Shown here one piece after another: positions 1,265-24,338 of a stretch of 64,000 nt of DNA (positions are counted from its first letter, which is position 1; the number at the start of each line of letters is the position of its first letter). The stretch lies in NCBI RefSeq assembly GCF_900112185.1, contig NZ_FOKP01000030.1, forward strand, positions 1-64,000, in the 5' to 3' direction. Under the pieces are notes generated by a model, which made no database searches, was not told the origin of the DNA, and saw only the letters and a program-made list of their open reading frames with translations. Source of the stretch: Allobosea sp. CRIB-10. GTDB taxonomy: Bacteria > Pseudomonadota > Alphaproteobacteria > Rhizobiales > Beijerinckiaceae. Position numbers and translations under genes: made by a program.

Positions 1265-1918
1265 CCGCCGCGCTTCCCGCGCCCAAGCTTTTCCCCGCCC
1301 GCAGGCTCATCCTGCGGGCGTTCTCACAATCGAGGGGCAGCGGAGCGCCGCGAGGCGCGTTTGGTGATCCGCTTCCATTGAGCCAGGAAGCGGCGCGGAT
1401 GGATTACATCCGCACGCCCCGTGGCGCTCCGCCAGCGGCGATTTGAAAGCTCCGGGCCGCGCTTCTGTCACGCCGGCTTGTGCAGCCGGCACGGTCTAGC
1501 GAGCTCCTCGCGCAGGGATCGTAGTGTCCCCAGGTCGGTTCCCGAAGCCTCCCGGGAGCGAGGCGCAACCCTCGCCCGCAGGCGCCGCACCCACCCCGCC
1601 AAACGACATGCCTCCGGTTGGCCGCCCCTCGGGGATGGGATGCGGGCGATTATACGGGAGGTTCGGAGGCCGGGGATAAGTTTGCGGTCAATGCCCGTTA
1701 GGCGCGGCGACCGCGAGAAAAGGCGAGGGGAACGGTCAACGCATACCCAATTGCTAGTGAATATCGGGCTTACACCACCTACAACCAATCGCCTTACCTA
1801 AGGACCTCAAACTCCTGTGAATAAGAAACCCAGCACCCTGCAATCAGAGATTGCGGAAAGTGCCCCTTTGTGACCGACTTAAATGCCTTGTCCGATTCGA
1901 TTCACGCGATGGTCCGAA
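1265..1918. other. gene-less structured intergenic region with a multi-hairpin repeat
   Basis: I find no convincing gene here. GCCCGCAGG/CCTGCGGGC (1297-1305 and 1311-1319) is a 9-bp hairpin. GCGGAGCGCC at 1340-1349 is mirrored by GGCGCTCCGC at 1423-1432 and encloses two more hairpins, CCGCTTCC/GGAAGCGG and GCGGATG/CATCCGC, so 1340-1432 is a compound palindromic repeat. A TATAAT hexamer lies on the minus strand at 1649-1654 without a good -35. G+C falls from about 1740 onward into the AT-rich gene that follows. Confidence 0.45.
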
Positions 1919-4348
1919 ATGCCAATCTCCTTGCAGAATTTGGTCGACACTCTGGACCCCGAGCGCACCGTTCTCTTCTTCGGAGCAGGGTCTTCAATAC
2001 CCTCAGGAGCTCCAAGCGCTGGCCAATTAGTTGCCGACATATCTAACACCTTTAAAATTACCCAGAACGGCTATCAGCTCAGTGAAATCGCCAGCCTCGC
2101 AGAGATGAAGAATTCTCGCCATGAATTAATAAAATTACTCAGAGATCTTTTCACTAGAATCAAGCCGACTGGTGGATTATTGAATATTCCATTGTATAAT
2201 TGGAAAGCGATATATACGACAAATTACGATAACATAATTGAACAAAGCTACAGACGCAAAGGGAAGGAGATTTCGGTTTGCGCATCGGATTACGATTTTA
2301 GCAATCCCGCGCCGCCGCACATCACACGACTTTTCAAGATACACGGAACCATTGAGAAAGACATCGTTGATGGACACAATGCAAGGATAGTCATCACAGA
2401 TAATGACTATGATCACCTTGCTGACTATCGAAAGATGATGTACGCGCGCCTGCGCGGAGACCTCATGGACGCGAAATTGATTATAATAGGCCATTCCTTA
2501 GGAGACAGGCATATCAAAGACTTAATAGAAAAAGTTATCGAAATAAAATCACAATCCGAGATAAATGGCGATGTTATTTTATTTCTTTTCCAGCAAGACA
2601 ATGATCGAGCAGCCCTAATTGAACGGAGAGGTATAAAGATTTGCTTCGGTGGAATTGATGAATTCTTCGCAGGTCTCGCTCAAAAAGCAGCGGGCAATGC
2701 ACCAAGCAAATTGCCCGGCGACACGCCAATCGATCGATACCCGCGCCTGAGCGCTGTTACCACTGACGTAGCCCACTCTTCGGAAAGCCGCCAATCCGAT
2801 GTAAAGGCGATGTTCGCGGGCTGGCCGGCTTCGCACGCCGACATCCTTGCGGGGCACACATTTGCGCGGACATCAGCCGACGAAATTGTCACCTTCCTCA
2901 AGAGAGAAGATTCGTTGGCAGCAATAGTGCTGGGCGCTAGCGGAGTTGGAAAATCAACCGCTTGTAGGCAAGCCCTACAACAAATCCGCAGCGAGGGCGT
3001 ATACTGCTGGGAACACAAATCAGACTTCACCCTACCTAGCCAAGATTGGTTTTCCGCAGCAAAAAACTTAAAAGACAAATCGCAATTTGGCATTCTCATG
3101 ATTGATGATGCGCATGCGCATTTGTTCGAGCTAAACTCACTAGCCGACCAGCTTAATTCGTCCGGAATATTCAACCTAAAGCTAATTGTTGTATCAACGA
3201 GACATCAGTGGAACCCGCGAATGAAATCTCCTGCTTTATATAAAGCGGGGCAGGAATTTTTGATTGCTCGCTTAAATCAAACTGAAATTGAAGCCTTACT
3301 TAACCTTATTGACGCAAATCGATCTGTCCGAGACCTAATTGAGCAAAATTTTAGCGGGTTCTCACGGCAGCAACGCCGCCGCCGTCTAATAGACCGATGC
3401 GAATCAGACATGTTTGTCTGCCTGAAAAATATATTTGCAAGCGAAAGCTTCGATGACATTATTCTACGAGAGTACGCGGATCTCGATCAAAATCTTCGCG
3501 ATGTGTATAGATATGTTGCCGCAATGGAAAATGCTGGCATTAGAGTTCATAGGCAGCTCTTGGTAAGAATTCTTGGAATTCCACTTAGAACAATTTCAGC
3601 TCTACTTGACAACTTGACAGATATTATTCATGAAACTGAGTTAAATCGTAAAGAAGGCATATACGCGTGGGATACGCGCCATGCAGCGATAGCGGCTATT
3701 GTGACAAAGTACAAATTCTCTGACGAAGACCAGATGATAAATCTTTTCGAGAATGTTATTGAAAATATTAATCCAACTTACGAAATCGAAATTCGAACCA
3801 TTCGTGAATTGTGCAATGCAACTTCTGGGATACCTCGAATCTCTGATAAGAATACCCAGAATAAACTACTCCGCCAACTTATGTCGTCAGCCCCAGCCGA
3901 ACGAGTGCCGAGGCATAGATTGGTAAGAAATCTTATTGAGCAGGGATCGTATGAGAAAGCAGAGATTGAGATCAGAATATTTGAGAAAGATTTCGGCATA
4001 GACGGACCAACATTTAGGTACAAAGTAGCCCTTCTAAATTCAAGAGCTTCTGAATCTCCTGGAATAATGACAGAAGATCGTATAAAAATACTGGAATCAG
4101 CTCGATCATTAGCTGTATCTGGATTGTCCAAATTCAGAAATAATAAAGGTATTTTACATGAATACGCAGAGTGCGGAATACTTTATTACAAGTTTACGAA
4201 AGACCCTAGTTTCTTCGATGACGCATTGAAGGCACTGAAGCGCGCAGAGGTCGAGTTAGGAGAGCCCGATATCAGCAGACTAATCGCTCGACTTGAGAAG
4301 AGGATGCAGGGCGCTCCTGTGGAAGGTCCTGATTTCGAGGTGGTCTGA
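1919..4348 (+). CDS. SIR2-STAND NTPase, putative Avs5-like anti-phage protein
   Basis: An 809-residue protein from the ATG at 1919. An upstream in-frame ATG at 1883 adds only 12 residues before the conserved part, and neither start has a strong ribosome site. Residues about 10-260 form a SIR2 fold: VLFFGAGSSIPSGAP (NAD loop), YTTNYDNIIE (the TQNID equivalent), LFKIHGTIE (catalytic His) and IIGHSLGDRHI. Residues about 330-480 hold a STAND/AAA-type NTPase with Walker A GASGVGKST and Walker B FGILMIDDAHAH. The rest is helical and may sense the trigger. Known SIR2-STAND proteins deplete NAD on phage recognition; assigning that role here is inference. It is markedly AT-rich against neighbours, has no partner gene, and ends just before the serC leader, which suggests horizontal acquisition. 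Confidence 0.85.
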   Translation: MPISLQNLVDTLDPERTVLFFGAGSSIPSGAPSAGQLVADISNTFKITQNGYQLSEIASLAEMKNSRHELIKLLRDLFTRIKPTGGLLNIPLYNWKAIYTTNYDNIIEQSYRRKGKEISVCASDYDFSNPAPPHITRLFKIHGTIEKDIVDGHNARIVITDNDYDHLADYRKMMYARLRGDLMDAKLIIIGHSLGDRHIKDLIEKVIEIKSQSEINGDVILFLFQQDNDRAALIERRGIKICFGGIDEFFAGLAQKAAGNAPSKLPGDTPIDRYPRLSAVTTDVAHSSESRQSDVKAMFAGWPASHADILAGHTFARTSADEIVTFLKREDSLAAIVLGASGVGKSTACRQALQQIRSEGVYCWEHKSDFTLPSQDWFSAAKNLKDKSQFGILMIDDAHAHLFELNSLADQLNSSGIFNLKLIVVSTRHQWNPRMKSPALYKAGQEFLIARLNQTEIEALLNLIDANRSVRDLIEQNFSGFSRQQRRRRLIDRCESDMFVCLKNIFASESFDDIILREYADLDQNLRDVYRYVAAMENAGIRVHRQLLVRILGIPLRTISALLDNLTDIIHETELNRKEGIYAWDTRHAAIAAIVTKYKFSDEDQMINLFENVIENINPTYEIEIRTIRELCNATSGIPRISDKNTQNKLLRQLMSSAPAERVPRHRLVRNLIEQGSYEKAEIEIRIFEKDFGIDGPTFRYKVALLNSRASESPGIMTEDRIKILESARSLAVSGLSKFRNNKGILHEYAECGILYYKFTKDPSFFDDALKALKRAEVELGEPDISRLIARLEKRMQGAPVEGPDFEVV

Positions 4349-4390
4349 AGTCAATCAGCCGTTTCGTGCAGTTTATCTTTCTGATTGACT
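4349..4390 (+). terminator. inverted repeat after the SIR2-STAND gene
   Basis: AGTCAATCAG (4349-4358) and CTGATTGACT (4381-4390) are a perfect 10-bp inverted repeat with a 22-base loop, starting directly after the stop codon. There is no U-tract, so it is at best an imperfect terminator. The right arm also contains TTGACT (4385-4390), a possible -35 for serC with TACGCC 18 bases downstream. Confidence 0.4.
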
Positions 4391-4427: not shown

Positions 4428-4472
4428 CGCCGCCCCAACGCGGCGCGCCCATCTGCAAGGATGGAGACATCG
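4428..4472 (+). ncRNA. serC leader RNA motif
   Basis: Two adjacent hairpins sit directly before serC. CGCCGC/GCGGCG spans 4428-4433 and 4440-4445 with loop CCCAAC. CCATC/GATGG spans 4449-4453 and 4460-4464 with loop TGCAAG. The second stem runs into the Shine-Dalgarno GGAG (4463-4466). This matches my recollection of the alphaproteobacterial serC element (Rfam RF00517): two short hairpins between promoter and serC start. The ligand, if any, is unknown; pairing near the ribosome site suggests translational control. Confidence 0.65.
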
Positions 4473-5651
4473 ATGGCGAATACGATTCCGGCAGCGCGCC
4501 CGCGCGTGCCGCATTTCTCGTCCGGCCCCTGCGCCAAGCGCCCCGGCTGGAGCCTCAAAGCCCTCAGTGACGCGGCGCTCGGCCGCTCGCACCGCGCCAA
4601 GATCGGCAAGGACAAGCTGAAACTCGCGATCGACCTGACCCGCGAGGTGCTGCAGGTTCCGGCCGATTATCGCATCGGCATCGTGCCGGCCTCCGACACC
4701 GGCGCCGTCGAGATGGCGATGTGGTCGCTCTTAGGCGCCCGCGGCGTCGACATGGTCGCCTGGGAGAGTTTTGGCGAGGGCTGGGTCACCGACGTCGCCA
4801 AGCAGCTCAAGCTGGCGGATGTGCGCACCTTCACCGCCCCCTATGGCGAACTGCCGAACCTGAAGAAGGTCGACACGAAGAACCGCGACGTCGTCTTCAC
4901 CTGGAACGGCACCACCTCGGGCGTGCGCGTCGCCGATGCCAGCTGGATCGCCGATGACCGCGAGGGGCTGACGATCTGCGACGCCACCTCGGCCGCCTTC
5001 GCCCAGCGTCTCGACTGGCCCAAGCTCGATGTCGTCACCTTCTCCTGGCAGAAGGTGCTCGGCGGCGAGGCTGCGCATGGCATGATCGTGCTCTCGCCCC
5101 GCGCGGTCGAGCGGCTCCTGACCTACAAGCCGGCCTGGCCGCTGCCGAAGATCTTCCGCATGACCTCGGGCGGCAAGCTCTCCGAGGGCATCTTCGCCGG
5201 CGAGACGATCAACACGCCGTCCATGCTCGCGGTCGAGGATTATCTCGATGCGCTGGCCTGGGCGAAGAAAGTCGGCGGGCTCGACGGGCTGGTGAAGCGC
5301 GCCGACGGCAATGCCCGCGTCATCGCCAAGTTCGTGCGCGAGAACGACTGGATCGACTTCCTCGCGGTCAAGCCGAAGACGCGCTCGAACACCTCGGTCT
5401 GCCTCAAGTTCACCGACCCCGCGGTGACGGCGCTGCCGGCCGATGCGCAGGCGGCGTTTGCCAAGCAGGTCGTCTCGATCATCGAGAAGGCCGGCGCCGG
5501 CTACGATCTCGGCCATTACCGCGACGCCCCTCCCGGCCTGCGCATCTGGTGCGGCGCGACCGTGCAGAGCCGCGATCTCAAGGCGCTGATGCCGTGGATC
5601 GCGTACGCCTTCAACGAGGCGAAGGCGGGCCTGGGCAAGAAGGCGGCCTGA
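4473..5651 (+). CDS. serC: phosphoserine aminotransferase
   Basis: Converts 3-phosphohydroxypyruvate and glutamate to phosphoserine and 2-oxoglutarate, the second step of serine synthesis, and may also act in pyridoxine synthesis. It is a 392-residue PLP enzyme of the alphaproteobacterial SerC type, starting [20 protein letters not shown]. The likely Schiff-base lysine is in [14 protein letters not shown] (about residue 195), preceded by [10 protein letters not shown]. The ATG at 4473 is preferred over 4461 because GGAG lies six bases upstream, whereas 4461 falls inside a leader hairpin. It is followed by serA after a 221-base gap holding a palindromic repeat, probably in one operon. Confidence 0.93.
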
Positions 5652-21662: not shown

Positions 21663-22880
21663 ATGGCCGATTTCCACCCCATTCTGGCGCGTGCGATCGC
21701 CGGACTGACCGACAAGTCGCCGGAAGCGCGCCGCGCCGTCTATGACCGGGCGCGCACGGCGCTGCTCGCGCAATTGCGCAGCCTCGACCCGCCGCTCTCG
21801 GAAGCCGACATCACCCGCGAGCGGCTCTCGCTCGACGAGGCCGTGTCGCGCATCGAGGCCGAGATCGCGCTCGCCGAGGCGATCGAGCCGAGCCTGCCGC
21901 CTCTCCCCCTGGACGAGCCGGCGCCGGCTCCTGCCGCTCCGCCGGAACCGAAGCCGCGTCCGGCAATGTCGCAGGAGACGCCGCGTTTCGAAGAGCGGAC
22001 CGCTTCGCATGAGGATGCGCAGCCGATCCGTCCACGCGTCGCCCCGCGGCGCGAGCGCAGCGTCAATCCCGGCCATGTCCGCACCGCCATCGTCGGCGGC
22101 GGCGTCGCGCTTGCCGTGGCGGTGATCGCCGGCGCCGCCTACTACGTCAACAAGATCGCCCCGCAGGACCAGCAGGTCCGGCCGCCGCGCGTCGAGACGC
22201 AGGCGCCGCAGGCGCAACAGGAACAGGCCGGCAAGATCAGCGAACGCGCCGGCGGCGAACAGGCCCCAGCGCCGAGCCAATCCTCCGGCCAGCGCCCGAA
22301 CCAGCAGGCGGGCAGCCCGGCAGGCAACGACATCACGGTCGCCCAGCGCGCCATCCTCTACATCGAGGTCCCAGACGCGCCGCAGCAGCCGCGTACCGTC
22401 CAGGGTCGCGTTCTCTGGCGGCTCGACAGCGACAGCGCCGGTGCCGGCCGGCCGGTCGAGACGATCGTGCGCGCCACCATCGAGATCGCCGATGCCGGGC
22501 TCTCGCTCGACTTCACCATCCGGCGCAACACCGATACCGCCTTCCCGGCCTCGCACATCATCGGCATGCGCTTCACCACCACAGGCGAGGCCGCGAGTGA
22601 CACGATCCGCGAGGTCGGCGTGCCGCAGTTCAAGCTCGAGGAGGGCGAGCGCGGTGCCCCGCTCTCGGCGATCGCCTCGGCCTTGGGCGAAAACCTGTTC
22701 GTCGCCGCCCTGTCGAACGTGCCGGTCGAGGCCGAGCGCAATCTCGACCTCCTGCGCAATCGCAACTGGCTCGACGTGCCGGTGCGCTTCGCCTCCGGGC
22801 GCCGCGGCATCATCACCTTCGAGAAGGGCAGCGCCGGCAACCAGACGATCGGCGACGCGCTGAACCGCTGGCAGGGTTGA
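21663..22880 (+). CDS. single-pass membrane protein, function unknown
   Basis: 405 residues. The N-terminal 75 are helical and start MADFHPILARAIAGLTDKSP. A proline-rich stretch (PAPAAPPEPKPRP) follows. One membrane helix lies around residues 140-160 (TAIVGGGVALAVAVIAGAAY). A Gln/Pro-rich linker follows, then a conserved C-terminal beta-rich domain from about 225 (AILYIEVPDAPQQPRTVQGR), probably periplasmic. GAGG precedes the ATG at 21663. It sits 31 bases after purA. I recognise it only as a conserved Rhizobiales hypothetical. Confidence 0.8.
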   Translation: MADFHPILARAIAGLTDKSPEARRAVYDRARTALLAQLRSLDPPLSEADITRERLSLDEAVSRIEAEIALAEAIEPSLPPLPLDEPAPAPAAPPEPKPRPAMSQETPRFEERTASHEDAQPIRPRVAPRRERSVNPGHVRTAIVGGGVALAVAVIAGAAYYVNKIAPQDQQVRPPRVETQAPQAQQEQAGKISERAGGEQAPAPSQSSGQRPNQQAGSPAGNDITVAQRAILYIEVPDAPQQPRTVQGRVLWRLDSDSAGAGRPVETIVRATIEIADAGLSLDFTIRRNTDTAFPASHIIGMRFTTTGEAASDTIREVGVPQFKLEEGERGAPLSAIASALGENLFVAALSNVPVEAERNLDLLRNRNWLDVPVRFASGRRGIITFEKGSAGNQTIGDALNRWQG

Positions 22881-22895
22881 GGCGAGACGAGCGCC

Positions 22896-24338
22896 TCAAC
22901 GCCGCGGGTTCGATGCCCGCTGCCGGGTGACCTCGAGCATCACAGGGTCCTTGCCCGCAGCGTAGTCGGCGAAACGCGGCGCGATCGTCACGTTCGGCCG
23001 GAGATCGCCGGCTGGCACGCCGTAAACGTAGTTCAGCAGGAAGCAGGTCTTTATCTGCGACAGGCTGCAGCCGTGTTCCCAATCGTGGAAGGCGGTGGTG
23101 TAGCGCACCGCAAGCTTCGAATTGGGCAGCAAGGTGGCTCCGCCCTCGCCCCAGAACCGCGAACGGTCGCCCATAGCCTCTCCGAAGATGACGGCGCGTG
23201 CTCCGGCATAATATTTCAGCCGCGCCGCCGTGCTGATCGCCGCCGAGAACGTGTTCGCGCTGGTCAGGATGAAGAGCCTGCCGTCCGGCGGCAGAAGCTC
23301 CGGCAGCCGGCGCGTGAAATCGGCGGTCAGGGTGTAGTCGCCGCCGGAATTGAAACGCAGATCGACGATGGCATCGCGAACGGGCTTCTTCGCCGCGGCA
23401 TCGAGAATGTTGGCCAGATGGGCGGATAGACCGACCGGGGGCTGATCGCCCACCCGGTTGATTTGGACGTAGAGAAGATCATCAGCCGGATAGGCGTGCC
23501 AGTAATTTGCGTCGAGGCGCGTGAGATAGGTCGGCAACGCGACGCCATCCAGCACATGCCGCCATCCGTTCGCCAGGCCTAGAGGACTCAAATTGCCCTT
23601 CGGCCATAAAAAGCGATTGTGAGGTGCCTGCGTAGCCGCATTGGCCGCGATATCCACCGAGCCAGCGCTTCCGCCAGCCATGCGGATCTCGAAGGTGCTG
23701 CCATCGGCCGTCACTGCCAAGCCGGCAGCATGCAAGAGCTCTGGCGAGATCAGGAAATTCGGCACGAACTCCCTCGCCAGATTGGCGGGGCCGCCGACAT
23801 GAGGGCGCAACGCCTCGACCAGGGCGGCAATCGAGCGCCCGTTCACGCCAAGCACCTCGCCGCCGAGGAGCTGACGTCGCTCATAATCCGTGGCGATCAC
23901 GAACAGCCCGTCGGCGAACCAGCTCAGTCGGATCGGCACGGCGTTGAAGCCGCGATCGCCGGCAAGCCCGAGCACATTGGTATGGCCGTTGTCGGCCAGA
24001 GCCACCGCCTTCGCTGCCGCCATCGCCAGACCGGCCCGGTCGAGCTCGCCGGCGCGCAGCTCGAGCGCTGCGACAGCCTGGTCGAACGCCACGCGGCTTT
24101 GCGCGGTGAAACTGCGCTCGACCTCCGGCAGGCGGCGCAGATGGGTGAGGTCCTGGAGGTTCCTGTCGCGCTGGGAGGCGGCCGCGGAACCGCTCGCCGC
24201 CGGATAGGGCTTCAGCATCGGATAGAGGATGACGCCGAGAGGGACTGCAACGAGGGCAAGCAAAGCTGCCACGCCAGCCAGCAGCCTGAGCCCGCTCCGA
24301 CGCCACGAGCGCCTGGGAACCTCACCATCTCGTCGCAT
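22896..24338 (-). CDS. membrane-anchored S41-like peptidase family protein
   Basis: About 480 residues. An N-terminal anchor helix (LRLLAGVAALLALVAVPLGV) is followed by a periplasmic domain that resembles C-terminal-processing-peptidase folds: LYVQINRVGDQ, DAIVDLRFNSGGDYTLT and FILTSANTFSAAIS, where the serine of the last motif would be the nucleophile. No PDZ domain is obvious. The ATG at 24338 is taken; a GTG six codons upstream is possible. The function is not established and it could be catalytically inactive. Convergent with the purA-linked gene. Confidence 0.65.
   Translation of the reverse strand: MRRDGEVPRRSWRRSGLRLLAGVAALLALVAVPLGVILYPMLKPYPAASGSAAASQRDRNLQDLTHLRRLPEVERSFTAQSRVAFDQAVAALELRAGELDRAGLAMAAAKAVALADNGHTNVLGLAGDRGFNAVPIRLSWFADGLFVIATDYERRQLLGGEVLGVNGRSIAALVEALRPHVGGPANLAREFVPNFLISPELLHAAGLAVTADGSTFEIRMAGGSAGSVDIAANAATQAPHNRFLWPKGNLSPLGLANGWRHVLDGVALPTYLTRLDANYWHAYPADDLLYVQINRVGDQPPVGLSAHLANILDAAAKKPVRDAIVDLRFNSGGDYTLTADFTRRLPELLPPDGRLFILTSANTFSAAISTAARLKYYAGARAVIFGEAMGDRSRFWGEGGATLLPNSKLAVRYTTAFHDWEHGCSLSQIKTCFLLNYVYGVPAGDLRPNVTIAPRFADYAAGKDPVMLEVTRQRASNPRR

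Follow-up and report, generated by a model that had tools for sequence, protein, structure and literature searches.

How defence genes gather at particular positions of the chromosome in the absence of integrases is not settled, and the question is addressed here through the region upstream of serC in Allobosea sp. CRIB-10. In the window, that is, the whole stretch of 64,000 nucleotides analysed (contig NZ_FOKP01000030.1, positions 1 to 64,000), a lone AT-rich gene precedes serC. What does this gene encode, and by which route could it have come to lie there? An earlier note, drawn from the letters alone, described it as an Avs5-like SIR2-STAND antiphage gene inserted at this position. The features concerned are collected in Table 1.

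Table 1. Coordinates of the features at the serC locus, in window positions
Feature	Position	Strand	Basis or remark
Repeat R, structured element in dispersed copies, its 3' end towards the cargo	1330..1684	+	Alignment, covariation
Segment of the serC hotspot with variable cargo, here AT-rich	1685..4384	.	Congener comparison
SIR2-STAND gene, 809 aa	1919..4348	+	Probable single-protein NAD-depleting antiphage sensor
SIR2 effector domain, residues 1-257	1919..2689	+	Pfam, family alignment, structure comparison
nSTAND_NTPase5 domain, residues 303-434	2825..3220	+	Pfam, alignment
Walker A	2933-2959	+	
Walker B aspartates	3104-3109	+	
C-terminal part, helical for the most part and proposed as sensor, residues 440-797	3236..4309	+	Predicted model
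TTGAC, start of the DNA in common with congeners and right border of the hotspot	4385..4389	+	Likely serC -35 box, putative promoter role
serC leader RNA, RF00517	4418..4469	+	Rfam
serC, conserved right-hand neighbour, phosphoserine aminotransferase	4461..5651	+	Nearest solved chain 2.5e-13

A foreign gene in the sole AT-rich stretch of the window

The gene lies in a single open frame (1883-4348), is intact and reads 809 codons plus a stop from the ATG at 1919. Since its family relatives align from this same ATG, the start proposed earlier is the correct one. Its GC content is 0.444 and its GC3 0.44, compared with 0.681 ± 0.022 and 0.87 ± 0.04 for 35 genes of the window, and its mean log codon frequency is -1.93, compared with -0.83 for those of the 35 longer than 600 bp (sd 0.115, minimum -1.08). 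Just two of the 64 one-kb blocks of the window, 2001-3000 and 3001-4000, have a GC content below 0.58; the gene occupies the only AT-rich stretch of the 64 kb. At 1e-60 it is carried by a single one of 67 genus genomes, that of CRIB-10 itself. This restricted presence and the very atypical codon use agree with a foreign, lone SIR2-STAND gene and speak against vertical conservation with normal codon use.

No recombinase is visible next to the gene, the left flank being just 1.9 kb long because the contig begins at window base 1. Two minus-strand frames on that side (217-477 and 706-1248) had no Pfam match at 0.001. Elsewhere in the window, ARAGORN reports a tRNA with an undefined two-base anticodon at 22840-22929, which overlaps predicted frames and is probably spurious.

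Domain organization and predicted fold

Both modules of the protein pass the curated Pfam cut-offs: SIR2_2 (PF13289) at residues 97-241 (2.6e-24, 86.3 bits against 24.5) and nSTAND_NTPase5 (PF25199) over the residues given in Table 1 (3.1e-11, 43.7 bits against 34). The SIR2 motifs GAGSS, TTNYD, IHG and GHSLGD noticed earlier and a Walker A sequence, GASGVGKST, are present in the translation, and the Walker B aspartates could be located. The putative catalytic residues N102 (2222-2224) and H142 (2342-2344), assigned by alignment to 9v0g and to 9v12, in which the two residues are alanine, are invariant in all 12 aligned family members, together with G22, G24, G143, G339, G342, G344, K345 and D396. 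This 12-member alignment omits L230 and L232, which have early stops, and L233-L241, which are partial or distant.

The AlphaFold model of the protein (mean pLDDT 74, pTM 0.57, residues 508-599 poorly modelled) predicts the long helical C-terminus that had been anticipated. Among solved structures, those closest to the SIR2 part include KomC, ThsA and DSR2 (Z 20-21), which are antiphage NADases. With its curated SIR2_2 score passed and the Asn/His pair conserved, this part can be assigned to the SIR2_2 antiphage NADase fold, though the domain could process a nucleotide other than NAD+. The gene is a probable one-gene antiviral suicide switch.

A clade separate from Avs5

The Avs5-like layout, with a SIR2 effector, a STAND module and a sensor, is borne out by the domains, the model and Foldseek, which against the PDB places EfAvs5 first (7.8e-20) and the AVAST5 filament second (2.8e-15) for the predicted model. 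A superposition of the model on these two structures as a single rigid body fails (rmsd 29 over 636 aligned residues). The full-length Avs5-type match expected in the earlier note was not obtained: NF041814 scores 28.2 bits against a cut-off of 1000, over residues 72-195 only, and the phmmer similarity to the solved EfAvs5 (9jap_A) covers residues 67-212 only, so that homology does not pass beyond SIR2. In a search with the profile of the gene's clade, 9jap_A is not among the matches listed at 0.001; NF041814 matches four of the 12 clade members at this threshold, the best being L220 with 35.9 bits over SIR2.

As a positive control, the congener cargo protein L127 matches EfAvs5 over residues 15-698 (7.3e-40). 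With NF041814 it reaches 21.4 bits, likewise far under 1000, and since L127 is a clear EfAvs5 relative, the NF041814 cut-off alone is too strict a test. Its nSTAND_NTPase5 match is weak (24.3 bits, below the cut-off). Both SIR2_2 and nSTAND_NTPase5 are matched by 12/12 aligned members of the family (E up to 0.001). By sequence, therefore, the gene belongs to a SIR2_2 + nSTAND_NTPase5 clade separate from Avs5, which none of Pfam, NCBIfam and PADLOC names as a whole. L127 itself (L127:4489-6864, congener G685) is a SIR2-STAND protein lying on the 3' side of a copy of repeat R.

Rare and scattered relatives

Within the family, 14 of 298 genomes give a match at 1e-10, full-length only in CRIB-10 and in G062 (51%, genus g22); in the class, two of 385 do so at 1e-18, CRIB-10 and a genome with a 24% relative. 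A first scan of genome contigs with a single-protein query found no relative. A search of named genomes with a pair alignment returned 22 loci, from which 11 full-length frames, 43-51% identical to the window protein, were aligned; they come from Nitrospira, Mesorhizobium, Fimbriimonadaceae, Accumulibacter, Halomonas, Sphingomonas, Qipengyuania and others, and in 10/11 the gene is GC-poorer than its own flanks. On two conjugative Pseudomonas plasmids the gene lies next to a tyrosine recombinase and is annotated as three separate frames, and a 52% copy occurs on one contig of a viral collection; tblastn of the window protein against the phage collection gave no match. Full-length homologues are thus rare and scattered across phyla, and appear to have spread horizontally.

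The region upstream of serC is an exchange hotspot

Of the 67 genus genomes, 66 gave a match to the serC region, a few of them through short matches only; against the PDB the serC product itself has no match at 1e-15. The serC leader begins 70 bp past the stop of the SIR2-STAND gene, and congener homology resumes at 4385. Over the congener loci it starts between 4379 and 4385, at TTGACTCCCC before the serC leader, in 28/28 testable loci (28 of 29, L028 being left out because its contig starts at the boundary). An empty site in close relatives and a single insertion upstream of serC had been proposed earlier; neither survived the comparison, as all 20 congeners examined carry other DNA there and the site is an exchange hotspot.

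The cargo of the window occurs at serC in none of the 20 congeners with longer flanks, and in 20/20 the local cargo joins at the same serC -35-like box. These stretches have a GC content below 0.57 in 15/20 cases and are 1.0-3.9 kb long, the left limit being set by hand in L057, L059 and L066, which lack R. Related cargo is shared in two pairs only (L051/L058 and L061/L068, 73-78%) and is otherwise different. The encoded frames include GmrSD plus HEPN, DUF3800, a D12 methyltransferase and a reverse transcriptase. The latter, a 514-aa protein from the serC cargo of G714 (L067:1756-3300), is possibly a defence RT; its best NCBIfam matches, group II intron RT and Drt3a, are all below cut-off. One frame of L066 reads like a transposase.

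Several short repeats were observed around the site. A perfect 9-bp inverted repeat, GTCAATCAG/CTGATTGAC, follows directly after the stop of the gene (4350-4389), its right arm including the TTGAC of the serC boundary. Further upstream, short GC-rich repeats at 154-207, 650-703 and 1227-1282 recur in both orientations upstream of the congeners' serC.

At least four such hotspots in one genome

The serC site is one of at least four hotspots of this kind in the CRIB-10 genome. The others marked by R lie 3' of uvrB, 3' of uvrA (between uvrA and trmFO) and 3' of malate synthase, and the four neighbour genes were confirmed by matches to solved structures. At the uvrB 3' end (L080:8434-9702) a 422-aa protein with a RelA/SpoT domain is encoded, which could be a toxin of the CapRel/toxSAS synthetase type. 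Between uvrA and trmFO (L081) lie a CHAT protein and a HARE-HTH protein. After malate synthase (L082:5172-7643), a protein joins an Mrr-type nuclease domain to nSTAND3, so that this genome has two STAND proteins at sites marked by R.

The uvrB flank was found in 62/67 genus genomes, and the 300 bp adjacent to its boundary have a GC content below 0.58 in 24 of 29 usable loci (best 30 of 62, L165 being omitted because its contig starts at the boundary). In many of these loci the edge falls at the stop codon of uvrB, and the junction provides a TAG, TGA or TAA. Among the best 30 of 115 matching genomes, the uvrA 3' end is AT-rich in 4/5 loci of the genus and 2/2 loci of genus g22, versus 1/23 loci of other genera. 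In G062, a g22 genome, the 51% homologue of the window gene lies between uvrA and trmFO, so one gene family occupies different hotspots in the two genera. No R was found beside this homologue, so a hotspot can be occupied in the absence of R. In G022, another genome of g22, the occupant beside uvrA is a DUF6119 protein (L215:2078-3946, 6e-125).

A fixed right-end motif of the cargo was sought and rejected: only a weak C precedes TTGAC at serC, and stop codons stand at the uvrB edge. A common cut site was rejected on these grounds. IS91-type elements target CTTG; such targeting was weighed as an explanation at serC but set aside, since uvrB lacks the pattern.

Repeat R is structured, one-sided and more alike within than between genomes

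R measures 355-430 bp, with sharp ends in the alignment of the window copy and 62 others. It flanks one side of 4/4 hotspots of the CRIB-10 genome and of 17/20 congener serC sites, and is present in 50/67 genus genomes; over the family it was found in 16 of 248 sampled genomes, belonging to three of 43 sampled genera. Covariation supports a folded element: 104 cells changed on both sides versus 31.5 in shuffles, and the score is 0.107 compared with 0.046 for shuffled and 0.015-0.030 for slid alignments, the structure being derived from the same alignment. When the whole window was compared with Rfam, the serC leader alone passed and R matched no described family; a sub-threshold speF match (18 versus 37 bits, minus strand) overlaps part of R. 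No R was found in the plasmid and phage collections, and the literature searched, within one library, held no paper on the hotspot or the repeat.

The surroundings of R are polar. Each of the four R copies of the CRIB-10 genome has AT-rich cargo on its 3' side, as has one of the two copies of G041. Over 43 copies at loci other than serC, mean GC is 0.68 on the 5' side and 0.58 on the 3' side, and a 1.2-kb flank with GC below 0.58 is found 3' in 18/43 copies and 5' in 0/43; these copies, 40 chosen by hand plus three from CRIB-10, come mostly from few-contig genomes and are not random, and many of their sites are orthologous, so they do not represent 43 independent events. Five of the 20 serC loci carry two R copies, which enclose an AT-rich gene in L055, GC-rich DNA (0.68-0.69) in three and 40 bp in one. 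Tandem arrays of R and cassettes had been considered at these loci; since the interval is AT-rich in one pair only, this argument was withdrawn and the odds of a capture system were lowered. The idea that R drives transcription of the cargo was likewise rejected, because cargo genes occur in both orientations. The copies with GC-rich flanks and the occupied site that lacks R make it less likely that R forms the terminus of the cargo itself.

In the 10 genomes for which both serC and uvrB copies of R were fetched, the two copies of one genome have a mean identity of 0.897, at least 0.90 in eight pairs, with 0.80 and 0.77 in the other two. Between genomes, same-locus identity is 0.812 and 0.805 and cross-locus identity 0.806, the same-locus value being higher in 29/45 pairs. 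Copies within a genome are thus alike while the locus matters little between genomes, which suggests exchange between R copies.

Hotspot cargo is diverse and rich in defence-type families

Clustering of the 104 AT-rich frames gave 87 groups, of which 71 have a single member. Of the 16 multi-member clusters, 11 represent one site fetched twice and five are real, each within one locus; cargo shared between loci, which could define a mobile unit, was not seen among the 16. With PADLOC at 1e-8, 78 cargo proteins, the window's included, match 277 families, and 43 ordinary window genes match 6; these are counts of families, not of proteins, from overlapping models, and the set was reduced from 89 proteins by leaving out 11 by hand (near-duplicates, short ones and some others). 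The PADLOC matches include PD-Lambda-5, NsnA, PD-T4-2, Drt9 and methyltransferases; the Pfam families found are GmrSD, HEPN, RVT_1, DarT, Mrr, SIR2, AIPR, FRG and RES. Some occupants have no defence annotation, for instance L162 and L056, without a Pfam match at 0.001. No integrase family appears among the Pfam matches listed (25 of 48 families); the frame of L066 mentioned above reads like a transposase. The sites have conserved flanks with defence-type cargo that differs per genome, as core defence hotspots do. They also yield a set of candidate defence genes, part of which match no Pfam family, and within a single genus replicate hotspots (four in the CRIB-10 genome) can be compared over 67 species, with R as a landmark.

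Weighing the explanations

Our preferred reading, to which we give a probability of about 0.8, is that the gene encodes a self-contained antiphage sensor-executioner of the Avs5/Dsr2 type, from a separate clade, in one of at least four hotspots exchanged by recombination. That the gene is a true Avs5 seems improbable: the effector-NTPase-sensor order is shared and EfAvs5 is the best Foldseek match, but the NF041814 score is far below its cut-off, the similarity to EfAvs5 stops at SIR2 whereas that of L127 extends over 684 residues, and nSTAND_NTPase5 is matched throughout the aligned clade. A SIR2 enzyme with no role in defence, such as a housekeeping deacylase or a metabolic regulator, appears more improbable still. 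We know of no phage assay for this SIR2-nSTAND5 clade and met none in the literature searched, which, within one library, held no paper on the protein; the STAND fusion, the AT-rich gene found in one of 67 congeners, and the closeness of the SIR2 part to antiphage KomC, ThsA and DSR2 all argue against such an enzyme.

The part played by R is less clear-cut. It may be an ordinary intergenic repeat or structured RNA, residing in insertion-tolerant intergenic regions and taking no part in cargo exchange; we regard this as quite conceivable, if somewhat less than even. Indeed, R persists beside GC-rich DNA and is missing from three of the 20 serC loci and from the G062 site, but the one-sidedness of AT-rich DNA and the AT-rich cargo beside all four CRIB-10 copies and one of the two in G041 speak against it. 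Alternatively, R could be the functional core of a gene-capture system, serving either as a structured site for landing or as the end of an element, with a trans-acting recombinase placing small cassettes on its 3' side. The same polarity, the sharp ends and covarying helices, the uniformity of copies within a genome (0.897 versus 0.81 between genomes), the presence of R in three of 43 sampled genera, the double-R loci with the enclosed gene of L055, and the AT-rich uvrA site in 6/7 loci of the genus and g22 versus 1/23 of other genera (best 30 of 115) are in its favour. On the other hand, the four other double-R loci enclose GC-rich DNA or 40 bp, 25/43 copies have no AT-rich DNA within 1.2 kb on the 3' side, the G062 site is occupied without R, and R was not found in the plasmid and phage collections. 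The right edge, moreover, varies by locus and fits the neighbour's need, a -35 box or a stop codon, as expected of selection and not of a fixed cut site. Capture therefore seems unlikely to us. Its most specific version is rather unlikely: a new site folded as single-strand DNA or RNA, in at least three genera of one family, which would send small defence-gene units 3' at several housekeeping loci and be kept uniform within a genome by exchange between copies, amounting to an integrase-less cassette system.

Recombination in the flanks is the simplest account of defence-gene exchange at these sites. At serC 5', uvrB 3', uvrA 3' and malate synthase 3', stretches that contain one to a few genes, are mostly AT-rich and in many cases look defence-related would be replaced between species, probably by recombination in the conserved flanks and in R, the cargo bringing no integrase of its own. 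The needs of serC and uvrB would set the cargo edges, and R, as an added homology anchor in several copies, could yield both one-sided cargo and uniform R copies. In the infected cell, the helical C-terminus would recognize a phage component, the nSTAND_NTPase5 module would switch and oligomerize, and the N-terminal SIR2 domain would then destroy NAD+, so that phage growth is halted. Repeat-bordered sites may help to explain how immune genes are swapped without an obvious mobile element.

Comparison with known systems

Dsr2, ThsA and KomC have the SIR2 fold and the catalytic Asn and His in common with the window protein, the similarity being found in the SIR2 part only; we know of no nSTAND5 module in them. 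The SIR2-nSTAND5-TPR-(cold-shock) proteins L003, L004 and L016 likewise carry SIR2_2 followed by nSTAND_NTPase5, at 19-20% identity, but they are longer (911-1056 aa), with TPR in 3/3 and a cold-shock C-terminus in 2/3, whereas the window protein stops after its helical part. Avs5 (NF041814; EfAvs5 9jap, PaAvs5) shares the SIR2 effector, the central STAND NTPase and the C-terminal sensor; unlike in Avs5, the NTPase of the window protein passes the nSTAND_NTPase5 cut-off, and similarity was found in SIR2 only. The window protein also keeps the HG motif (H142), where PaAvs5-1 has NG according to PMC12931631. In Avs5 as described there, the SIR2 domain hydrolyses NAD+ once a phage protein has triggered it, and it is from this mechanism that the proposed NAD+ hydrolysis is borrowed by analogy.

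At the level of the locus, the core defence hotspots of Pseudomonas aeruginosa, as presented in PMC10250203, are alike in their conserved flanks, variable defence content and lack of a single mobilizing element, and exchange by recombination in the conserved flanks is suggested for them. The present sites differ from these in being at least four in one genome, in the cargo of 1.0-3.9 kb at serC and in a common, structured, one-sided repeat. A probable exchange without integrases also links the sites to the MGE-less hotspots, for which PMC5635113 argues recombination in the conserved flanking core genes; here, it is accompanied by repeat R and by sharp edges at a promoter or a stop codon.
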